A DNA stretch of 64,000 nt from an uncultured Anaerolineae bacterium (lineage in GTDB: Bacteria > Chloroflexota > Anaerolineae > J036 > Brachytrichaceae): assembly GCA_937959265.1 (NCBI GenBank), contig CALGMA010000004.1, positions 1 to 64,000 of the forward strand, read 5' to 3'. The notes below the pieces were generated by a model that was not told where the DNA came from, ran no database searches, and saw only the letters and a list, made by a program, of their open reading frames with translations. Position numbers and translations under genes: made by a program. This document shows, in pieces, positions 14,218 through 23,064 of this stretch (the first letter of the stretch is position 1; each line of letters starts with the position of its first letter).

Positions 14218-17200
14218 GTGGCTGCGTCTCAGGAACAGTCGTTTATTGCGGCACCCGAAATCACTCGCCTATTTCAAGAGCTTGAGCGGAACGCGATGGC
14301 AGCTTTGCCGTCATCGTCATCGTCCGCCGGTTCGGCTGGTAATGAGCAGCCGTCTCCGCAAGACCTTCTTACTCGGCTGAATGACTTCTGCACCGACCTG
14401 ACCCAGCTCGCGCTGGAAGGCAAGCTCAGCGTGGCCTACGGGCGCGATACTGAGGTGGAGGAAGCCCTGCGCGCGCTGGCCTCACCGGGGACGCTCTTCC
14501 CCCTACTGGTCGGCAAGCCGCGCAGTGGCAAGACCACAGTGGCTCATCACGTCGCCAACCGCATTGCCCGTGCTGAATGCCCTGAGTCGCTCAAAGGGTT
14601 GCGCGTATATGAGACCACGCCCAGTCGCCTGCTGAACGGTCTAGGCGGGGCAACCCTGTGGATGAACGGGATCAACGGCCTGCTCGCGGCGCTCGTCCGA
14701 TCGAATGTGGTGCTCTTCCTGCGCGACTTCCACAGTGCGCTTGGGCTAGGTGCGCAGCCCGACGAGTCCGTCCCTGATTTGGCTTCGGCGCTGGGCGATC
14801 TGTTGCAAGGCATGCATCCACGCATGCTGTTCGAGGCGCGCAGCCGTGGGTTGGAGCGCGTATTTACCGAAGCGCCGGTCCTGCGCAGCCTGTTTGCTCC
14901 GATCAAGGTGGAAGCGATGACGCGCGAGGCAGCCGCATCTGTCATTCAGCGGGCGGCGGAGGACCTGGAGATCGTGCACGAGATCGAAATCGGCGCTGAT
15001 GCCTGCGACGAGGCGCTCGAGCTGGCGGCGCGCTTCCTACTCAACGAGGTGCTACCGGGATCGGCGCTAGATATGCTGAAGGATACGCTGGCGACGGCCG
15101 GTGTGGGGAACGACGGCGCCGGGGCGCTTGCGCGCGCCGACGTGCGCAACCGCTTCATCCAACGCAGCGGCTTGCCGGAGTTTCTGGTCAACGACGACGT
15201 GCCCTACGACGAAGAAGCGGCCCGCAAGTTCCTCAGCCAGCGCGTATTCGGGCAGGAGATGGCAGTCGAAGCCGTGTTGCGCATGATTGCCCTCGTCCGC
15301 ACGCGCCTGAACAACCCGCAGCGTCCTATGGGCGTGTTCCTCTTCCTTGGCCCAACCGGTGTGGGCAAAACCGAGCTGGTCAAAGCGCTGGCGCGCTTCC
15401 TGTTTGGCGGCGAGGAACGGATCGTGCGCTTCAACATGGCCGACTTCAACGACCCGTGGACTTCGGTGGATCGCATGTTCGGCAATCCCCACGGCAGCAC
15501 CGAGCTGTCGCGCCTGGGTATGCTGAGCGCACGCATGGCGCAACAGACGTTTGCGGTGCTGCTGCTGGATGAATTCGAGAAGGCCATCCCGGACATGTAT
15601 CAGCGCTTCTTGCAGTTGTTCGATGAAGGCATTCTGATCAACGGTCAGGGCGAGGAGCTGAATCTGCGCAACACCGTCATCGTGCTCACATCCAACTTGG
15701 GCGCGCAACTGCTCAACCCACAGCTCGGCTTTCGCGTGGGCGACCCGGTCGAGGAAGCCGAGCGCGCCATTGTGCGCGAGAGCGAGACCTACTTCCGCCC
15801 CGAATTCATCAATCGTATGGATGCGGTGTGTTTCTTCAAGCCGCTCTCGCGCAATGTCGTTCGCCAGATCGCCCAGCGCGAGGTCGCCGACGTGGTCGCC
15901 CGCGAGGGCATCGCCCGGCGCAGCTTGCGCATCAGCGTGGATGACTCGGTGATTGATCTGCTGGTCGAGCGGGGTTATGACCTGCGCTTTGGCGCGCGCT
16001 ATTTGAAACGACAGATCGAGCGCAGCATTACCTACCCGCTGGCGCGCCACATCGCCCGCAAGCGTCTGTCCGATGGCGCAACCGTTCGGCTGATCGCTCG
16101 CGGCGGCGAGATCGCCGTGTGGGTGATGGATGAGGACGATGGCGGAGGTGACTCGGGCGCAGTGGTGCGCGATTCGTCTTCGCAGGGGCATTTGGCTGTC
16201 GTGGGCCATCCGTTCTCGGCCAAGGAGCTGCGTTCCCGGCTTGAGGCGCTGGGGGAACGCATCGCGCGCATGCTGGAACAGCATCACATCGCCGACCTGA
16301 AGGCGCGCGTCTCGGCCTTGATCGAACACGTAGGCCAGCCTGATTTTTGGCAGCATCCTCAGGAAGCCACGGCGCAGATTGAGGCGATGAACCTGCTCTC
16401 GCAGCGCGTGGATCAGGCCGAGAATGTGCATCGGTTGTTCGAGCAGTGCGACGACGCATTGAAGCGCGCAGTTGCGACGCGCGGCAAGGCTGCGGCAGGT
16501 GAGCTAGCCGAAGCCAATCGCCTGTACGCCGCGCTGGCGCGCGAGCTGCCGCTGGCCGAGACCATGTTGTGTCTGCGCAGCGAGGAAGATCAGGCCGGCG
16601 CGTTCCTCACCGTGCGCGCCATCGTTGCAGCCAACGAGGACGCAGCGCTGCCGGCGGAATGGGCGCGCGACCTGGCGCTGATGTATGTCGGATGGGCGAA
16701 GTCGCGCGGCTTCCCCGTTGCGCTGGTCAACGAGGTAACCGACGGCGAAGGTGTGCGCGAAGCGACGATCAACATCGCCGGCTTCGGCGCCTACGCCTTG
16801 CTCAGGGGTGAGACCGGGTCGCACCGACTGGTGCGGCAATCGCCGAAGCGCGACGGCGAGCGCATCACCGTGTGGGCGCGCGTGGAGGTGCTGCCCGATT
16901 CACCCCTGGTCGGCAACCCCACAAACGATATCAGCATTGAGCATCGCCCTCTGCGCGAAGCAGGCGCATTGACCGCCCGGCTGTTGCGTCAGACGACGAT
17001 CGCGCTGGGCAAGCCCGGCGCAGCAGGAAGCCGCCGCGCGATTGTCTGGCGGCATGCCCTGTCCGCCGATGAGGTCGAAGCACATGTGCGGCGCTATGCG
17101 CCCCGCTGGCTACACGCGCAGCAGCAGCTGACGCGCGCTGCGCAGGCGGATGACGATGGGCCACTGAAGCTTGCCGACCAGGTGCGCACCTACACGCTGT

Positions 17201-17319
17201 TCAAACAGTCGAGCGTGAAGGATGCGCGCACCGGCCTGACCAGCACGCAGTCGAAGAAGGTGCTGGCCGGCGCGCTCGACGACTTCCTGATCGCCTATCT
17301 CACGGCCAGTTTGGGCTAA
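14218..17319 (+). CDS. ClpA/ClpB-like double AAA+ ATPase fused to a GGQ-less release factor 2-like protein
   Basis: One uninterrupted 1033-aa frame. Residues ~97-104 hold a first Walker A (GKPRSGKT), but the Walker B region reads VLFLRDFH instead of the usual DE form, so the first ATPase looks impaired. The second ATPase is complete: GPTGVGKTEL (~378), VLLLDEFEKA (~447), sensor IVLTSNLG, and the arginine finger in YFRPEFINRMD (~524), followed by a ClpB-type small domain to ~640. An acidic linker leads to a PCRF domain (PDFWQHPQEA, ~708), then an RF2 core (ALMYVGWAKSRGF, ETGSHRLVRQSP, VEVLPDSP) and an RF2 C-terminus (DQVRTYTLF, VKDARTGL, LDDFLIAYL). The place of the GGQ peptide-release loop reads REAGALTARLLR, and the SPF stop-codon tripeptide reads SPK. 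So it may bind ribosomes but should not release peptides. GTG start; likely leaderless. Its stop overlaps the convergent XPB operon by 4 bp. Confidence 0.85.
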   Translation: MAASQEQSFIAAPEITRLFQELERNAMAALPSSSSSAGSAGNEQPSPQDLLTRLNDFCTDLTQLALEGKLSVAYGRDTEVEEALRALASPGTLFPLLVGKPRSGKTTVAHHVANRIARAECPESLKGLRVYETTPSRLLNGLGGATLWMNGINGLLAALVRSNVVLFLRDFHSALGLGAQPDESVPDLASALGDLLQGMHPRMLFEARSRGLERVFTEAPVLRSLFAPIKVEAMTREAAASVIQRAAEDLEIVHEIEIGADACDEALELAARFLLNEVLPGSALDMLKDTLATAGVGNDGAGALARADVRNRFIQRSGLPEFLVNDDVPYDEEAARKFLSQRVFGQEMAVEAVLRMIALVRTRLNNPQRPMGVFLFLGPTGVGKTELVKALARFLFGGEERIVRFNMADFNDPWTSVDRMFGNPHGSTELSRLGMLSARMAQQTFAVLLLDEFEKAIPDMYQRFLQLFDEGILINGQGEELNLRNTVIVLTSNLGAQLLNPQLGFRVGDPVEEAERAIVRESETYFRPEFINRMDAVCFFKPLSRNVVRQIAQREVADVVAREGIARRSLRISVDDSVIDLLVERGYDLRFGARYLKRQIERSITYPLARHIARKRLSDGATVRLIARGGEIAVWVMDEDDGGGDSGAVVRDSSSQGHLAVVGHPFSAKELRSRLEALGERIARMLEQHHIADLKARVSALIEHVGQPDFWQHPQEATAQIEAMNLLSQRVDQAENVHRLFEQCDDALKRAVATRGKAAAGELAEANRLYAALARELPLAETMLCLRSEEDQAGAFLTVRAIVAANEDAALPAEWARDLALMYVGWAKSRGFPVALVNEVTDGEGVREATINIAGFGAYALLRGETGSHRLVRQSPKRDGERITVWARVEVLPDSPLVGNPTNDISIEHRPLREAGALTARLLRQTTIALGKPGAAGSRRAIVWRHALSADEVEAHVRRYAPRWLHAQQQLTRAAQADDDGPLKLADQVRTYTLFKQSSVKDARTGLTSTQSKKVLAGALDDFLIAYLTASLG

Positions 17320-19169
17320 ATGTTGATCCCGCGTTCGCGCAGCATCGCCCGTACGACCTCGCCATGTGTCGGCTGCACGAGCGCCAGCGGCTTTGTGCTG
17401 CCCTCGATGGGGGTCAAATACGGACCTACTACGCTATCGTCGAGCAAGTTATCCAGCACGGTGTGGTTGGATACCTCGAGCAACATCACCGGTTGCAAAT
17501 CGGCCTTGCCGAAGAAGCTGGCCCATGCGCGAATCTTCTCCTCCAACTCGACTGGGATCGGCCCGGCGTGTAATTCGGCGAGCATGGCCAGCAATTGATC
17601 GAGCGCGGCGCCGGCGCTCATCGCGGCGCGCACGCTGCCGGCCGTGATGCGCGCGGCATGATCTCCCTCGCCGGTTGGCGAAAGTTCGGCGAATTGGGCC
17701 AACCGGCCCAGGGCATATACGCTCGGCGCAGCCTGGGTGAACGTGACCTCGCCTTCGTTACTCACGCGCAGCGCGTTCTCGGTCGCCGGATCGCCGGCCG
17801 GCTGTAGCAGCGGCGTCCAGCCCGCCTCGCGCAGCACCGCCGTAACTTCGGCGACGTCGCGCCCTTCGATCAACCGGAAGCGCGGGCCGATGGCCTGTGG
17901 CTCGAACGGCGTCAATGCGTCTGTCAGCTCTTGTTCTGCTTCGGCGTCTGCGAACTGCACCACACAGACGTTGCGGTGAAAGGTGATGCGCCGGTGCGCT
18001 GCTTCCCATTCCTCCAGCGAGCGGCGCACGTTGGCCGGGATCGGCCCACCCTGGTGCGCTTCGAGGAAGGCGATGACGCGCGCGGCGTTCCATCCGCTTT
18101 GCTGGCCGCGATACAGCGATTCGCGCGTGAGCTGATAGGTGATGACGCGCTCGCCGCCCTGCGACTCGGCGAAGTGATCGAGGTCGCTCAGCACTGCGTC
18201 GCTGATCGGTTCGAGCGCCAGCACGGCGAAGTTCGGCTGCACGATGAGCTTGCCGCCGCTCTCGACGAATGTCGGCTGATCGCCGCCGCCGATCAGCCAT
18301 GCGCCGGTCGGTGTGAGGCGGAACGCCGCCGGCGCGACGTTTTCACCGCCGGCCTGCCGAGCATCGCTCGGGTATCCCAGTTCGACTAGACCCATCCACC
18401 ACAGTGGGCCGGTCAACACGTTCACGATGAATCCGCCCTCGACCAGATCCCAACCGTTTGCCTCGTTCTTGACCGCGCCGAAAGTAAGCCCATAGGGATT
18501 GTTTGCCCCATAGTAAGGGGAGGCATACAAACTGCTCTGGCTGCTGCCGCGATGCCAGCGCTCGAACAAGAAGGCGTAGTCGTTGCGCTTGACGTAGGCG
18601 ATCAGTTCGGCCAGCGTAATCCAGTCGCCGGATTGCCGATTGACTTGCGCCAAACGGCCGATCGCCCGCAATAGCGTGAGGCGGGCTTTGCCAAGCGCTG
18701 CTGGTGCTTCTCGGCCTGCATATCCGCCGCTGACTTGCAGCGGCAATCGCAGCAGCTCGTTCCACGCGTCGCTATCGCGCCAGGTTTCAAACGTCCACTT
18801 TACCCGCTGGGCCATCGGCATGCCGAGCAGCCGACCGTTCGGATTGGCGTTGATGAGGCGGCCCTGATTGGCCTCGCTCAGCTCGTTCATCGCCCGCAGC
18901 AGTCGGCGCATGAACCACATTCGCCCGTTGTCGCGTTCGTCGGCCGGCGCCTCTGCCACATTCAGCGCTGCGGCCAGTGCCTTGAGGTGACTCTTATAGA
19001 CCCAGCCCTGTTGCGTCAACGCGACGCCGCTGGCCTTGCGCACATGGCGCCAATAGCGGCCCAGGTCGCGTTGGAAGTCGCCGGCGCTGGCGCTGAGCAC
19101 TGTGAATTGGGAGCTGCGCATTGCCCTTCCCGAATGCTCATGCTCGATTCTGGACTCCTCCCGATTCAT
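17316..19169 (-). CDS. Helicase-associated (XPB/Ssl2-type, Helicase_C_3) domain protein
   Basis: Large 617-aa protein without helicase motifs. The middle part (residues ~295-345) contains GGDQPTFVESGGKLIVQPNF followed by VLALEPISDAVLSDLDHFAE, the hallmark of the Helicase_C_3/XPB_Ssl2 domain that accompanies bacterial XPB helicases. The N-terminal half is helical with many Trp residues and may contain winged-helix folds; the C-terminus (VSNHTVLDNLLDD...IRAML-like) may be a WYL-like small-ligand or nucleic-acid module. It is the third gene of a minus-strand operon, 2 bp after the preceding gene, which it resembles in general build. Role: presumably a partner of the helicase. The specific function is unknown. 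Confidence 0.7.
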   Translation of the reverse strand: MNREESRIEHEHSGRAMRSSQFTVLSASAGDFQRDLGRYWRHVRKASGVALTQQGWVYKSHLKALAAALNVAEAPADERDNGRMWFMRRLLRAMNELSEANQGRLINANPNGRLLGMPMAQRVKWTFETWRDSDAWNELLRLPLQVSGGYAGREAPAALGKARLTLLRAIGRLAQVNRQSGDWITLAELIAYVKRNDYAFLFERWHRGSSQSSLYASPYYGANNPYGLTFGAVKNEANGWDLVEGGFIVNVLTGPLWWMGLVELGYPSDARQAGGENVAPAAFRLTPTGAWLIGGGDQPTFVESGGKLIVQPNFAVLALEPISDAVLSDLDHFAESQGGERVITYQLTRESLYRGQQSGWNAARVIAFLEAHQGGPIPANVRRSLEEWEAAHRRITFHRNVCVVQFADAEAEQELTDALTPFEPQAIGPRFRLIEGRDVAEVTAVLREAGWTPLLQPAGDPATENALRVSNEGEVTFTQAAPSVYALGRLAQFAELSPTGEGDHAARITAGSVRAAMSAGAALDQLLAMLAELHAGPIPVELEEKIRAWASFFGKADLQPVMLLEVSNHTVLDNLLDDSVVGPYLTPIEGSTKPLALVQPTHGEVVRAMLRERGINI

Positions 19170-19171
19170 GC

Positions 19172-21184
19172 TTACTTCACCCTCGGCGTGTAGCCCTTTT
19201 CTTGAAGTTCCTCGATCAACGCGTCCAGGCCATCCTCGTACAGGACGAAGGCACGCGGCGATAGTTGGTAAACCACGTGCTGCATCAGGCTGGTGCTGGC
19301 GGCCAGCTCTCTGGCGGCGAAGTCATCGGTCAGCTCCAGCACGGTGAGCGATTGATACACGCGTACGCGCCCATGCCGCCGCGCGATCAGCTTGAATTGG
19401 TTGCTGACCGTACGGCTGAGTGGCACCCTGGCGCGCTTGAACTGCGCTGCGACATCCGCGAACGACAAACCTTCTGACAGCGCACGCTCGATGCTGGCTG
19501 CGGTGAATGTGTAAGTGAACGGCGCATTGCCGCGTTCGGTGCAGCGGCGCACCACACCCACCAGCGCGGCGCGATCCGGCGCTGGCGGCGCTCGCAACGT
19601 GCGCTCGTCCAGCCATTCGATTGGCTCGACCGTGCGCGACTTGCGGGCGGCGCCGACCGGCAGCGCATCCTCTCGCCCTTCGATCAACCATTCGCCCACC
19701 GGTGTGATCTTGAAAGCGTCCAGCCGGCCGGCCGGCGTCAAGCGTACCTCGACTGCACCGAACCAGGCGAGTGAATCTCGTATGATGTGTTCAAGGACGG
19801 CGCCAGCGGTGGCGCGCCATTCCTCCGGGCGTTTCAAATTTATGCGGGCGCCCGTGTCAGCGAGCGCAAACCACCAGTCCGCCTTCGTAGCAAACGTCCA
19901 AACGCATTCCGGGTAAAACTCGAAAAGCTGTGTCTGCAGCGCGTCCCAGCGGATCCACCGGTCGAGCGGCAGGCCGCGCAGCACGCGCACTATGTAGCGC
20001 CGTAGCGCGCACCACTCGGCGGCCAGCAGGCCGGGTGTCAGGTAGCGCGCGCCGATCGCGCGCATCACGCGGAAGTTCTGCTCGGGCTTCAGGTCACTCA
20101 TGGCGCTGCGCACTTCCAGGCCGGTCATGATTTGCTCGCTCCAGGCCGTCCAGGCGCGCCGGAGTTTGTGCTGATCGGCCAGCACCAGCCACTCTTCGAC
20201 CGCGCTGTTGCGTGTGCGCACGCGCAGCGCGCCATCCGCCGCTTGTGTCGCGCGTGCACCAGGATTGGGCGCCTCGATCAGTTGCAGGGCACATGCGATG
20301 GCGAACAGGAATTCGATGTGCGGCGTGGGCAGACCGGTTTGGTTCTCCAACGTTGCCGATGATTCGGCCGTCAGCGGGCTGAGCATCGGCACACTGATGC
20401 CGGTGTGTGGGTCCGGCGCCCAGTTCGGCCGGGATCGCAGCACGCGCTCTGTTTCGTCGGCGCTGTGCTCCCAGTCGCGCAGCCAGATCAAGCGTGCGGC
20501 TTGCTTATGCGGTGGCAGCGTCGCGCGCAAGGCGGCACCGCTGCGCGCGACGGCGTCCAGGAATCCCTCGAAGTGTTCGAGGAAATTGGTGATAGGTGAC
20601 GAAAGTCCCTCGACCTCATGCGTCGTCGCCTCCGCCGGGATGGGCCAGCGCATCACTGGTGTGCGCACGCGGTGCAGCGGCAGCCACTGATAGTACACAT
20701 CACGCGAGCCGACGGGGAAGGGCGCACGCGTCGGGAAGAGCAGGGCGTGCCGGCGCAGTGACTCGATCAGCTCCGTCAACCGACGGTCGGCATCGAGCCG
20801 GTAGTCGCCCGAGCGCTCGGCCAGCCGCGCCCACAGGTCGGCGATCGTGCTGCGCGCGATAGGCACCTCGTGGTCGCGCGCGGTGAGCAGCCGACGGGCG
20901 AAGTTTTTTTGTTCGTCGCTCAGGCCCTCCAACAACGCATCAGGCGATTCGGCGACGCGGGAGATGCGCTCATTTAGCGCTGTGACCACTTGTTCGACCA
21001 ACCCTACGCGCGAGTTACCCTTCGGCGTCGCACCTAGCCAGCGTGCCAATTCGCGCAACTGGGCGCCGCTGAACTCGGCTTCGATCACCGGCGCGAGTGA
21101 AACTGCGCTGGTGCGAAAGGGCATGGCGACGGGCCACGTCATTGCCGATGTTACAAAGTCGGTCGCAGGTTGAGCCTTTCCCAT
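19172..21184 (-). CDS. Large helicase-associated protein, second of the XPB operon
   Basis: A 670-aa protein lacking ATPase motifs. The N-terminal part (residues ~35-160) has SAP/winged-helix-like helices (LRELARWLGATPKGNSRVGL). The C-terminal ~150 residues (VRVYQSLTVLELTDDFAARE and QLSPRAFVLYEDGLDALIEE) resemble the Helicase_C_3 region that follows XPB-like enzymes in other bacteria. It lies 26 bp after the helicase gene and 2 bp before the next gene, so the three are almost surely co-transcribed and probably form one complex. The recognition rests on general resemblance and context; no known name applies. ATG 21184 is the outermost start; Met15 or Met21 are alternatives. Confidence 0.65.
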   Translation of the reverse strand: MGKAQPATDFVTSAMTWPVAMPFRTSAVSLAPVIEAEFSGAQLRELARWLGATPKGNSRVGLVEQVVTALNERISRVAESPDALLEGLSDEQKNFARRLLTARDHEVPIARSTIADLWARLAERSGDYRLDADRRLTELIESLRRHALLFPTRAPFPVGSRDVYYQWLPLHRVRTPVMRWPIPAEATTHEVEGLSSPITNFLEHFEGFLDAVARSGAALRATLPPHKQAARLIWLRDWEHSADETERVLRSRPNWAPDPHTGISVPMLSPLTAESSATLENQTGLPTPHIEFLFAIACALQLIEAPNPGARATQAADGALRVRTRNSAVEEWLVLADQHKLRRAWTAWSEQIMTGLEVRSAMSDLKPEQNFRVMRAIGARYLTPGLLAAEWCALRRYIVRVLRGLPLDRWIRWDALQTQLFEFYPECVWTFATKADWWFALADTGARINLKRPEEWRATAGAVLEHIIRDSLAWFGAVEVRLTPAGRLDAFKITPVGEWLIEGREDALPVGAARKSRTVEPIEWLDERTLRAPPAPDRAALVGVVRRCTERGNAPFTYTFTAASIERALSEGLSFADVAAQFKRARVPLSRTVSNQFKLIARRHGRVRVYQSLTVLELTDDFAARELAASTSLMQHVVYQLSPRAFVLYEDGLDALIEELQEKGYTPRVK

Positions 21185-21210
21185 CGCGGCAAACCCAGAG
21201 TCTCCCTGCG

Positions 21211-23064
21211 CTATTCGAGCGCACCACCGGTGCGCCGGGTGGGCACTGCGTTCACGGCCAGCAGCGCCGGCGTGAAGCCGGATACCTCTTCTTCGTAGAG
21301 GATGTCGTAGTGGTAGCCTTGCTCGGTGAGGAAGAGCTGGCGCTTGGCAGCGTATTCCTGGTCGAGCGTATCGCGCGTGACGATGGTGTAGAAGTGCGCC
21401 AGCAGGCCGTTCTGCTTTGGCCGTAGCACGCGCCCCAGGCGTTGTGCCTCTTCCTGCCGGCTGCCGAACATGCCGCTCACCTGGATCAGCACGTTCGCGT
21501 CGGGCAGGTCGATCGAGAAGTTGCCGACCTTCGACAGCACCAGCCGGCGGATCTGTCCCTCGCGGAACTGCTGAAAAAGCTTCTCGCGCTGGCGCACCGG
21601 CGTCTCTCCGGTGATCAGCGGCGCATCGAGCCGCTGGGCGATTTGCTCCAACTGCGGGATGTACTGGCCGATGATCAGCACGTCGTCATCTTTGTGTTTG
21701 GCCATCAGCATCGAGACGATCTGTAGCTTGCGCGGGTTGGCTGCGGCGAAGTGATATTTCTGATCGTGTCCGGTGACGGCGTATTCCATGCGATCTTCAT
21801 CGGCCAGTGAGACGCGGATTTCGTGGCATTCGGCGGTGGCGATCCAGCCCTGGCGCTCCAGGTCCTTCCACGGCACGTCGTACTTCTTTGGCCCAACCAG
21901 CGAGAACACATCGCCTTCCATACCGTCTTCACGCACCAGCGTAGCGGTCAGGCCTAGCCGGCGGCGCGCCTGAATCTCCGCGGTCATGCGGAAGACCGGC
22001 GCCGGCAGCAAGTGCACCTCATCGTAGATGATCAGCCCCCAGTCCATGCTGTTGAACAGCGCCATGTGCGGATATTCGCTGATCCTGGGCAGCCTGCGCT
22101 TTTTGGGAGCCGTAGATTCGAAATAAAGGGTCGGCGCAGCGCTGCCGTCTTCATCTGTTCCCAATCCCCGGTCTCTAAGTTCTGACCCCTTTCGCGGGTG
22201 GTAGGTCAACACCTGATAAGTGCAGATCGTCACCGGCCGTATATCCTTCTTCAGGCCGCTGTACTCGCCGATTTGATCTTCGGTGAGTGTGGTCTTATCG
22301 AGGATCTCGCGCATCCACTGGCGGACGGCGACGGTGTTGGGTGTGAGGATGAGGGTGGCGCACTGCGCCTTGTGCATGGCAGCGATGCCGACGATGGTCT
22401 TCCCAGCGCCGCAGGGCAGCACTACCACGCCGCTACCGCCGGCCGCGCTGCCCTGCGCCCAATACACCTCAGCGGCGTCAGCCTGGTAGTGTCGCAGCGC
22501 GAATGGCTGGCCGGCAAGCGTCACCTGACGCAGGTCGAAGTGCAGCGGCGCGCCGCTCACGTAGCCGGCCAGGTCTTCGGCCGGATAGCCGATCTGCAAC
22601 AAGACGCGTTTGACGTGGCCGCGCTGCGCCGGGTCTATCTCGAAGATTGACTGGCTCAAGCGACCTTTCACCAGCGGCGCGAACGATCGGTGACGCGCCA
22701 GTTCTTCGCCCAGCACGGCGTCGTCGGCAATGACCAGCATGCGCCCATCTTCGAGCGTGAGCTTGATCCGCCCGTAACGGCCGACGGCATCGCGGATGTC
22801 TACCTTGATGTTCTCTGGAAGGGGGTATTTCGAGTATCGCTCCAGATCGGCCAGGATCACATCAGCAGTCAGGCCGGCGGCAGCAGCGTTCCAGAGCGAC
22901 AGCGACGAGATGCGGTAGGTGTGCACGTATTCCGGGCTTTTCTCGAGCTCGGCGAAGCGCGCCAACGCGTCGCGCGCCTCGGTGTAATATGGGTTGTCTA
23001 CCTCCAGCAGCACCGAGCGGTCGCTTTGTACGATGAGCGGATTCTCCGGCTTATAGCTGTGCAT
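21211..23064 (-). CDS. XPB/ERCC3-type superfamily 2 DNA helicase
   Basis: DNA translocase related to eukaryotic XPB and mycobacterial homologues, expected to open damaged or paused DNA. Motifs in order: N-terminal damage-recognition-like domain, Q-like LRHYQADA (~195), Walker A GAGKT (~222), DEVH box in IIYDEVHLLPA (~326), the XPB-specific RED motif in LVREDGMEGD (~358), GLTAT, and motif VI in EEAQRLGRVLRPK (~565). About 40 extra residues (near 275-315) between LTYH and PHMALF are low-complexity and unlike other XPB proteins. First gene of a three-gene operon with two accessory proteins. TCTAAT lies 10 nt before the ATG on the minus strand, so its leader is very short. Confidence 0.92.
   Translation of the reverse strand: MHSYKPENPLIVQSDRSVLLEVDNPYYTEARDALARFAELEKSPEYVHTYRISSLSLWNAAAAGLTADVILADLERYSKYPLPENIKVDIRDAVGRYGRIKLTLEDGRMLVIADDAVLGEELARHRSFAPLVKGRLSQSIFEIDPAQRGHVKRVLLQIGYPAEDLAGYVSGAPLHFDLRQVTLAGQPFALRHYQADAAEVYWAQGSAAGGSGVVVLPCGAGKTIVGIAAMHKAQCATLILTPNTVAVRQWMREILDKTTLTEDQIGEYSGLKKDIRPVTICTYQVLTYHPRKGSELRDRGLGTDEDGSAAPTLYFESTAPKKRRLPRISEYPHMALFNSMDWGLIIYDEVHLLPAPVFRMTAEIQARRRLGLTATLVREDGMEGDVFSLVGPKKYDVPWKDLERQGWIATAECHEIRVSLADEDRMEYAVTGHDQKYHFAAANPRKLQIVSMLMAKHKDDDVLIIGQYIPQLEQIAQRLDAPLITGETPVRQREKLFQQFREGQIRRLVLSKVGNFSIDLPDANVLIQVSGMFGSRQEEAQRLGRVLRPKQNGLLAHFYTIVTRDTLDQEYAAKRQLFLTEQGYHYDILYEEEVSGFTPALLAVNAVPTRRTGGALE

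Follow-up and report, generated by a model that had tools for sequence, protein, structure and literature searches.

A Clp-type AAA+ ATPase fused to a release factor 2-like chain that has lost its GGQ and SPF motifs, in Chloroflexota bacteria

We analyzed a 64,000-nucleotide stretch of DNA from an uncultured Anaerolineae bacterium (contig CALGMA010000004.1, positions 1 to 64,000; hereafter the window), in which a single open reading frame (ORF) of 1033 amino acids joins a ClpA/ClpC-like AAA+ module to a chain resembling peptide chain release factor 2 (RF2). As judged by alignment with its relatives, the RF2 scaffold is retained and both the stop-codon reader and the peptide-release catalyst are gone, and the second of the two ATPase modules appears intact in nearly all members of the family. 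We propose, tentatively and with somewhat less than even credence, that the RF2 half is a non-catalytic mimic by which an ATP-driven ring of the Clp type is brought to its target, most likely the ribosome.

One open reading frame joins two known protein families

The double AAA+ module (D1 and D2) spans residues ~54-630 and the whole RF2-like chain residues ~669-1033 of the same protein, with the following features on the forward strand of the window.

14218..17319, +: whole gene, ClpA/ClpC-like AAA+ fused to RF2-like chain; GTG start, 1033 amino acids
14218..14367, +: variable N-terminal extension, residues 1-50, without Clp N-domain; mean amino acid identity 0.34 across five close orthologues
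14377..15222, +: AAA+ module D1, residues ~54-335
14512..14538, +: D1 Walker A GKPRSGKTT, residues 99-107, intact
14710..14730, +: D1 Walker B VLFLRDF, residues 165-171, degraded (RD for DE)
15229..16107, +: AAA+ module D2 and small domain, residues ~338-630; Pfam AAA_2 and ClpB_D2-small
15349..15372, +: D2 Walker A GPTGVGKT, residues 378-385, intact
15481..15513, +: D2 pore-loop site GNPHGSTELSR, residues 422-432, without the PPGYVG grip motif
15556..15573, +: D2 Walker B VLLLDE, residues 447-452, intact
15724..15732, +: LGF tripeptide, residues 503-505, where ClpA/ClpC carry the ClpP-docking IGF/L loop
15793..15816, +: D2 arginine-finger motif FRPEFINR, residues 526-533
15991..15999, +: D2 sensor 2 GAR, residues 592-594
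16123..16221, +: linker, residues ~636-668, fast evolving
16222..16587, +: RF2-like domain 1 (PCRF helical bundle), residues ~669-790; Pfam PCRF, helical bundle in the AlphaFold2 (AF2) model
16588..16908, +: RF2-like domain 2 (the codon-recognition domain in RF2), residues ~791-897
16840..16848, +: SPK in place of SPF, residues 875-877
16909..17166, +: RF2 domain 3 remnant, residues ~898-983
16960..16968, +: A-G-A at the GGQ position, residues 915-917
17167..17316, +: RF2-like domain 4, residues ~984-1033, with DQVRTY...VKDARTG...VLAGALDDFL

A first-pass annotation, made from the sequence alone, had described this gene as a Clp-type unfoldase fused to an RF2 without GGQ and SPF. Searches run separately on the two halves returned the Clp-type and RF2 matches that it had claimed, and Pfam, NCBIfam and phmmer all bear out the fusion. 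Pfam places AAA_2 at residues 369-536 (2.3e-36), ClpB_D2-small at 543-624, AAA_lid_9 at 236-297 and PCRF at 695-883 (1.1e-23), and PCRF also scored above cut-off in all four further members tested. The RF-1 family, which holds the GGQ domain, was absent among the best 25 of 32 Pfam families for the window protein; in the four further members it matched solely at L009, with an E-value of 0.14, below cut-off. (Here and below, G numbers denote the genomes of relatives, G000 being the window's own, and L numbers denote loci.) The NCBIfam ClpA model covers residues 41-625 as a single stretch, and no Clp N-domain was found in the window protein, the match beginning at ClpA position 155. The RF2 model prfB is the best over residues 676-895, with 141 bits vs 60-62 for the RF1 models. 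With phmmer, residues 8-375 of the C-terminal 377 amino acids align with E. coli RF2 structures (5.9e-27), C-terminal motif included. The AAA part aligns with E. coli ClpA in one stretch; ClpB and ClpC align best over D2.

The RF2-like half keeps a scaffold and loses its active motifs

We aligned 19 fusions from 19 genomes, the window protein included, with 25 RF2 sequences that share 55 invariant columns; 23 of these sequences come from the phylum, and E. coli and the metagenome-assembled genome of L037 supply one each. Residues are numbered as in E. coli RF2, fixed by GGQ at 250-252, and a column counts as kept when at least 90% of the 19 fusions retain it. By this measure the RF2-invariant columns kept by the fusions number 1/2 for domain 1, 7/28 for domain 2, 2/13 for domain 3 and 9/12 for domain 4. 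The losses include the functional motifs. At the GGQ column neither Q252 nor G250 occurs in any fusion, and G251 occurs in all of them; at the SPF column F207 is absent throughout, with S205 and P206 in 5/19 each. The GxGG loop that precedes helix alpha5 (RF2 135-138) has also gone, G135 and G138 being found in none of the fusions and G137 in two. The residues kept in all 19 (W144, W155, G185, E195, G197, H199, R324, Y326, D335, R337, G351, F356 and L361) we read as a probable fold core.

In the window protein itself, the RF2 scaffold motifs picked out by the first-pass annotation are present, the GGQ position reads A-G-A, SPF reads SPK, as it had noted, and no GGQ string occurs anywhere in the chain. 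Displacement of GGQ was considered for the whole family and rejected: four such strings occur in three of the 19 proteins (G409, G172 and, twice, G318), all off the GGQ column, and the one in G409 lies in the domain-3 remnant about 17 residues downstream of that column.

The predicted structure agrees with the homology. An AF2 model of the C-terminal 377 amino acids, built from an alignment of five rows of which one is a true RF2, reached a mean predicted local distance difference test (pLDDT) score of 61.9 and a predicted template modelling (pTM) score of 0.43; pLDDT was 68-94 by block over residues 11-120 and mostly below 50 in the last third. When the model was compared with the PDB by Foldseek, the best 50 of 863 matches (E <= 10) were all class-I release factors, free or ribosome-bound, and 55 matches had E <= 0.001. 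E. coli RF2 (1gqe) matched at E 2.8e-20, and the best query-normalised template modelling score belonged to free T. thermophilus RF2 (0.57/0.60). The model thus predicts, with modest confidence, an RF2 fold for the C-terminal part.

D2 appears to be a working ATPase without its grip motif

For the AAA+ half we compared the fusions with 17 ordinary Clp proteins: two from E. coli, four from the window's own genome and 11 from the phylum, these last representing 11 of the 17 ordinary Clp loci among L016-L033 (all except L022, L028-L031 and L033). D1 keeps its Walker A GKT in 19/19 fusions. The Walker B DE pair, present in 16 of the 17 comparison proteins, is found in none of them; 18 carry R-D or E-D instead and one D-Q, and the window protein reads LFLRDFH. 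D2 has its Walker A GKT in 18/19 (GKI in G011), Walker B DE and the arginine finger (PEF.NR) likewise in 18/19 and the sensor 2 GAR in every fusion. By these motifs D1 is non-canonical, and all but one of the 19 members have an intact D2 ATPase, in agreement with the earlier description of one complete ATPase and one with a degraded Walker B.

The comparison also revealed a loss that the first-pass annotation had not reported. All 17 comparison proteins have PPGY in the D2 pore loop, none of the 19 fusions has it there, and in three fusions the loop itself is missing; a stray PPGY string in G318 falls within its N-terminal extension. The D1 pore loop varies between lineages: KY.GE survives only in G092, G196 and G172 (KYLGEW), Phe stands at the Tyr place in the Herpetosiphon group, G309 and G011, and the window's lineage has no aromatic residue there. 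In Clp proteins, pore-loop tyrosines grip the substrate and IGF/L-type loops dock ClpP; at the docking place 18/19 fusions read [LIW]GF and one GGF.

The window's own genome also encodes a Clp-like ATPase (L107, G000:C26) with a degraded D1 (GSGRR as Walker A, no DE) and an intact D2 with its pore loop.

The fusion is under purifying selection and descends from RF2 and a Clp-type ATPase

For five orthologues from the window's genus (10 pairs, less the saturated ones in the case of the linker), ratios of nonsynonymous to synonymous substitution (dN/dS) point to purifying selection on all domains tested. D2 is the most constrained part of the protein in this genus (median 0.077), followed by RF domain 4 (0.103), domain 1 (0.134), domain 2 (0.154) and D1 (0.165). 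Domain 3 is the most relaxed of the RF domains (0.246), and the linker reaches 0.336 (3/10 pairs saturated). Within the genus Herpetosiphon, G110 and G102 show no amino acid difference in D2 at 38% synonymous difference.

In phylogenetic trees, the RF parts of the fusions form one clade (99/97 with 13 rows; 99 with 15 rows), and so do their D2 modules (99, 15 rows). The trees omit the near-identical Herpetosiphon rows G281, G078, G034 and G043 as well as the RF2 rows L070 and L090; the careful RF tree additionally omits the long rows G318 and G011, and the D2 tree the own-genome row L105. In the careful tree an RF1 row falls between the fusions and RF2, so that the root of the fusion clade is not settled, and long branches add to this uncertainty. 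Since the profile scores favor prfB over the RF1 models, descent of the C-terminal half from RF2 is nevertheless indicated, and alignments of the other half trace it to a ClpA/ClpC/ClpB-type ATPase. Chance or artefact is excluded because 18 homologous fusions exist elsewhere, selection is purifying and RF2 is the best fold match in the PDB.

The fusion is probably old and was probably lost more than once

Our survey covered the phylum Chloroflexota, and we do not claim that the fusion is restricted to it. At least 15 of 400 sampled genomes carry it, 14 identified by E-value and one (G318) confirmed from its sequence; this is a lower bound, since the matches listed end near 2e-53 and G097, G176, G331 and G225, which have RF matches in frames of 455-626 amino acids, are uncounted. 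The window's own family has the fusion in 6/28 genomes. The Herpetosiphon family (the family of G110) has it in 8/9, the non-carrier genome being 75% complete and G421 being counted from its search row alone, and the family of G309 in 2/26, with G426 read in part. Counts for these last two families used an E limit of 1e-70, at which a copy as divergent as that of G318 (3.1e-57) would be missed. Among the carriers is the cultured species Herpetosiphon aurantiacus, as strain DSM 785 (G110, identified through its plasmid).

In fusion-less genomes of the window's genus, traces of the gene persist at the spot beside the neighbor gene. G152 retains a 57-codon remnant of the C-terminal end (L099 915-1085), and G413 and G325 retain N-terminal remnants of ~40 codons (L122 2824-2946; L123 2761-2874). 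No remnant was seen beside the neighbor gene in G414, of the same genus, where that neighbor is just 57% identical and synteny is uncertain. Because the remnants come from opposite ends of the gene, the losses were probably independent. In the nearly complete genome G150 (L025), from another family, the fusion copy is broken into several frames. We take the gene to be old: a core gene of the Herpetosiphon family that other lineages can do without.

Two other explanations were tried and rejected. As a plasmid or mobile-element gene the fusion finds 2009 matches among 72,556 plasmid records (E <= 1e-30), none covering 80% of the protein; as a defense gene it finds PADLOC matches confined to the AAA parts. 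The RF part matched 62 phage records out of 50,697, with identity under 60% in every case; among the best 10 of these 62 a single one carries an annotation, peptide chain release factor 2. Six records of Prevotella Lak phages, unannotated there, match the RF part over 98% of its length with 27% identity (tblastn). Scans of viral contigs yielded no further rows.

The architecture differs from both parents and from known rescue systems

The fusion resembles RF2 (PrfB, TIGR00020, PCRF and RF-1 domains) in its homology over domains 1, 2, 4 and, weakly, 3 and in its predicted fold, and differs from it in lacking the GGQ Gln, the SPF Phe and the GxGG loop and in sitting behind a double AAA+ module. 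With ClpA, ClpC and ClpB (Hsp100) it shares the tandem AAA+ modules, the intact D2 ATPase and the D2 small domain, and with the ClpC-like proteins of its own genome the GF tripeptide. Unlike them it has no Clp N-domain, a degraded D1 Walker B, no D2 pore-loop motif and an added C-terminal RF2 arm; the ClpB-type middle domain is missing too, the ClpA-like match being contiguous. Since the protein lacks defining features of both parent families, its architecture appears to be new, although both parents are known. Among the literature matches listed we found no description of a Clp/RF2 fusion.

Several other systems offer analogies. Passages of a survey of release-factor evolution (PMC6514570) describe Pelota/Dom34 as an archaeo-eukaryotic release-factor paralogue that lacks the catalytic Gln and stands beside the true factor. 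The likeness to the fusion is one of logic only, Pelota having another fold and ancestry and energy-driven partners that are separate proteins. The same passages cover RF1, RF2, ArfB, PrfH and the eukaryotic bacterial-type ICT1, C12orf65 and inactive MRPS35. They present ArfB/YaeJ and PrfH/RFH as bacterial paralogues acting outside normal termination; both, unlike the fusion, keep the catalytic Gln, and no AAA+ part is mentioned for them there. The passages also report an interaction between a release-factor-related protein, Vms1, and an AAA+ ATPase, Cdc48, but these are two proteins joined by a VIM motif, and Vms1 has the archaeo-eukaryotic fold (PMC6514570). The survey's text contains no mention of Clp and uses AAA five times, CDC48 being the subject of the passages at hand. 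In the ArfA-RF2 rescue complex, RF2 occupies the ribosomal A site without codon reading, as passages of PMC5378476 describe; RF2 there, unlike the fusion, keeps GGQ and hydrolyses peptidyl-tRNA.

A codon-blind RF2 arm may target a Clp-type ring to ribosomes

In the mechanism that we favor, the protein would form a ring like its Clp relatives, with D1 binding nucleotide chiefly for assembly and D2 burning ATP. The RF2-derived arm would no longer terminate translation and would instead serve for targeting, most likely to the A-site/L11-stalk region of ribosomes where no stop codon is read (stalled, on truncated mRNA, vacant or idle). The ring, moving at the expense of ATP, would then lever or remodel whatever the arm holds, by factor removal, subunit separation or ribosome inactivation, with no threading through the pore. 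We prefer lever-like remodelling to threading because no other part is as conserved as the D2 ATPase, and yet the D2 grip motif is missing. Loss of the gene in some close relatives suggests an accessory role, perhaps as a quality-control or stress device.

The first-pass annotation had likewise proposed that the RF2 part docks in the A site, with ATP used to pull or dismantle something such as a stalled nascent chain. The docking half of this proposal stands as plausible, since domain 1 and the domain 2/4 core are kept; the chain-threading pull is disfavored, with PPGY at the D2 pore loop in 0/19 fusions and no aromatic at the D1 pore-loop Tyr place in the window's lineage. Docking at ribosomes without a stop codon would be the likeliest use of the arm, given the retained domain 1 and domain 2/4 core, the switch-loop Trp context (WG[ST]V[VA]R) found in 9/19 fusions and the ArfA-RF2 precedent. 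According to the same passages of PMC5378476, RF2 in complex with ArfA leaves SPF unbound and touches the L11 stalk with its domain 1, and its switch-loop Trp319 stacks on A1492 in termination complexes. A more specific form of this proposal, which we regard as possible though doubtful, would make the fusion a one-chain bacterial counterpart of Pelota and its motor, whose dead, codon-blind RF2 arm lets the attached Clp ring prise a stop-less ribosome complex apart by ATP without threading.

Several observations weigh against the mechanism that we favor. Most RF2-invariant residues of domain 2 are lost, and what remains may be just fold core; G092, G196 and G172 have lost a recognizable domain 3 altogether, and the window's lineage lacks the switch-loop Trp, though its own RF2 lacks it too. 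Between the Herpetosiphon-family genera of G110 and G070, D2 identity is 0.85 vs 0.52-0.53 for domain 4. In G011 D2 is degraded as well, having lost the Walker A Thr, the Walker B Glu and the arginine finger. The true-RF2 row in the AF2 alignment may have tilted the model toward an RF2 fold. No named neighbor gene links the fusion to ribosomes, and in the Herpetosiphon family it is flanked by pyrimidine genes, not translation genes. We also found no association with SmpB, present in 32/32 genomes, or with RqcH, over cut-off in 14/32 (11/19 carriers and 3/13 others).

In a different reading, less probable in our view than ribosome targeting, the RF2 part left the ribosome and was retooled to mediate protein interactions or control oligomerization in a Clp-like ATPase whose client is non-translational. 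It would account for the loss of GGQ, SPF and most RF2-invariant domain 2 and 3 positions while the core stays, for the pyrR-like gene upstream in 7/7 Herpetosiphon-family loci and the pyrB-like gene downstream in 6/7, with no translation gene seen adjoining, and for the dispensability of the gene in close relatives. It fits less well with PCRF scoring over cut-off in 5/5 members tested, with the decoding-center Trp context in nearly half of the fusions, or with a domain 4 constrained nearly like D2 in the window's genus, though not between Herpetosiphon-family genera. A puller of the kind first proposed, an RF2-docked unfoldase, possibly with ClpP, acting on stalled nascent chains or ribosomal proteins to extract or degrade them, draws on the conserved D2 ATPase, arginine finger and sensor 2, on the [LIW]GF at the ClpP-docking place and on the D1 pore loops with KYLGEW or Phe. 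We think it unlikely, given the universal absence of D2 PPGY and D1 Walker B DE, the lack of an aromatic in the D1 pore loop of the window's own lineage and the missing Clp N-domain.

Another way to stay on the ribosome would be a competitive silencer, whose dead RF2 arm plugs the A site for hibernation or termination control and whose ring sets oligomeric state or turnover. Such a plug would be expected to look like a GGQ-less, codon-blind RF2, and passages of PMC6514570 propose roles of this kind for catalytically inactive bacterial homologues of the archaeo-eukaryotic type, but the strongest constraint falls on the D2 ATPase rather than on the RF arm, and we consider this reading quite improbable. 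The remnants in G152, G413 and G325 and the frame-broken copy in G150 would fit a decaying gene or assembly artefact without function; against 19 open copies, purifying selection and matches in 8/9 Herpetosiphon-family genomes, this seems very improbable indeed.

In a 2021 review (PMC8012679), how bacteria split stalled ribosomes and how they extract nascent chains are listed as unknown steps. If the RF2 arm still finds ribosomes, the fusion would represent a class of ATP-powered ribosome remodellers that employ a former release factor for targeting. Even off the ribosome, a Clp-type protein that lacks the D2 pore-loop motif and whose ATPase is tightly constrained would be a test case for non-threading AAA+ rings. 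The carrier Herpetosiphon aurantiacus DSM 785 makes the question directly testable.

Genomic context and companion genes

The window's genome encodes a separate intact RF2 (GGQ, SPF), an intact RF1 and a third GGQ protein, as well as a separate, intact ClpB and other Clp proteins. With its own RF1 and RF2 present, housekeeping termination need not depend on the fusion. The genome's own RF2 (L002) carries Phe at the position of the E. coli RF2 switch-loop Trp (DAEFGNQIRNY). A role in making up for an absent rescue system was also considered and set aside, there being no pattern with SmpB or RqcH.

In the Herpetosiphon family, a phosphoribosyltransferase gene lies directly upstream of the fusion in 7/7 loci (including L005-L011), overlapping it by 1-4 bases, and a carbamoyltransferase gene lies downstream in 6/7. 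The Pfam naming of these neighbors was done for H. aurantiacus only (L046 7016-11736), and we take them to be PyrR and PyrB, respectively. No neighbor was shared across lineages in ORF lists read by eye and named in part by Pfam, with no systematic comparison. The G011 fusion (L012/L048) adjoins an FlK-like thioesterase gene and a HEAT-repeat gene.

In the window, the fusion is a single gene between an opposite-strand response regulator and a convergent XPB-helicase set.

17316-23064, -: convergent set, an XPB/ERCC3-type helicase and two Helicase_C_3 proteins (617 and 670 amino acids)

ORFs resembling this set occur at L034, L035 and L098, and also at L099, where there is no fusion.

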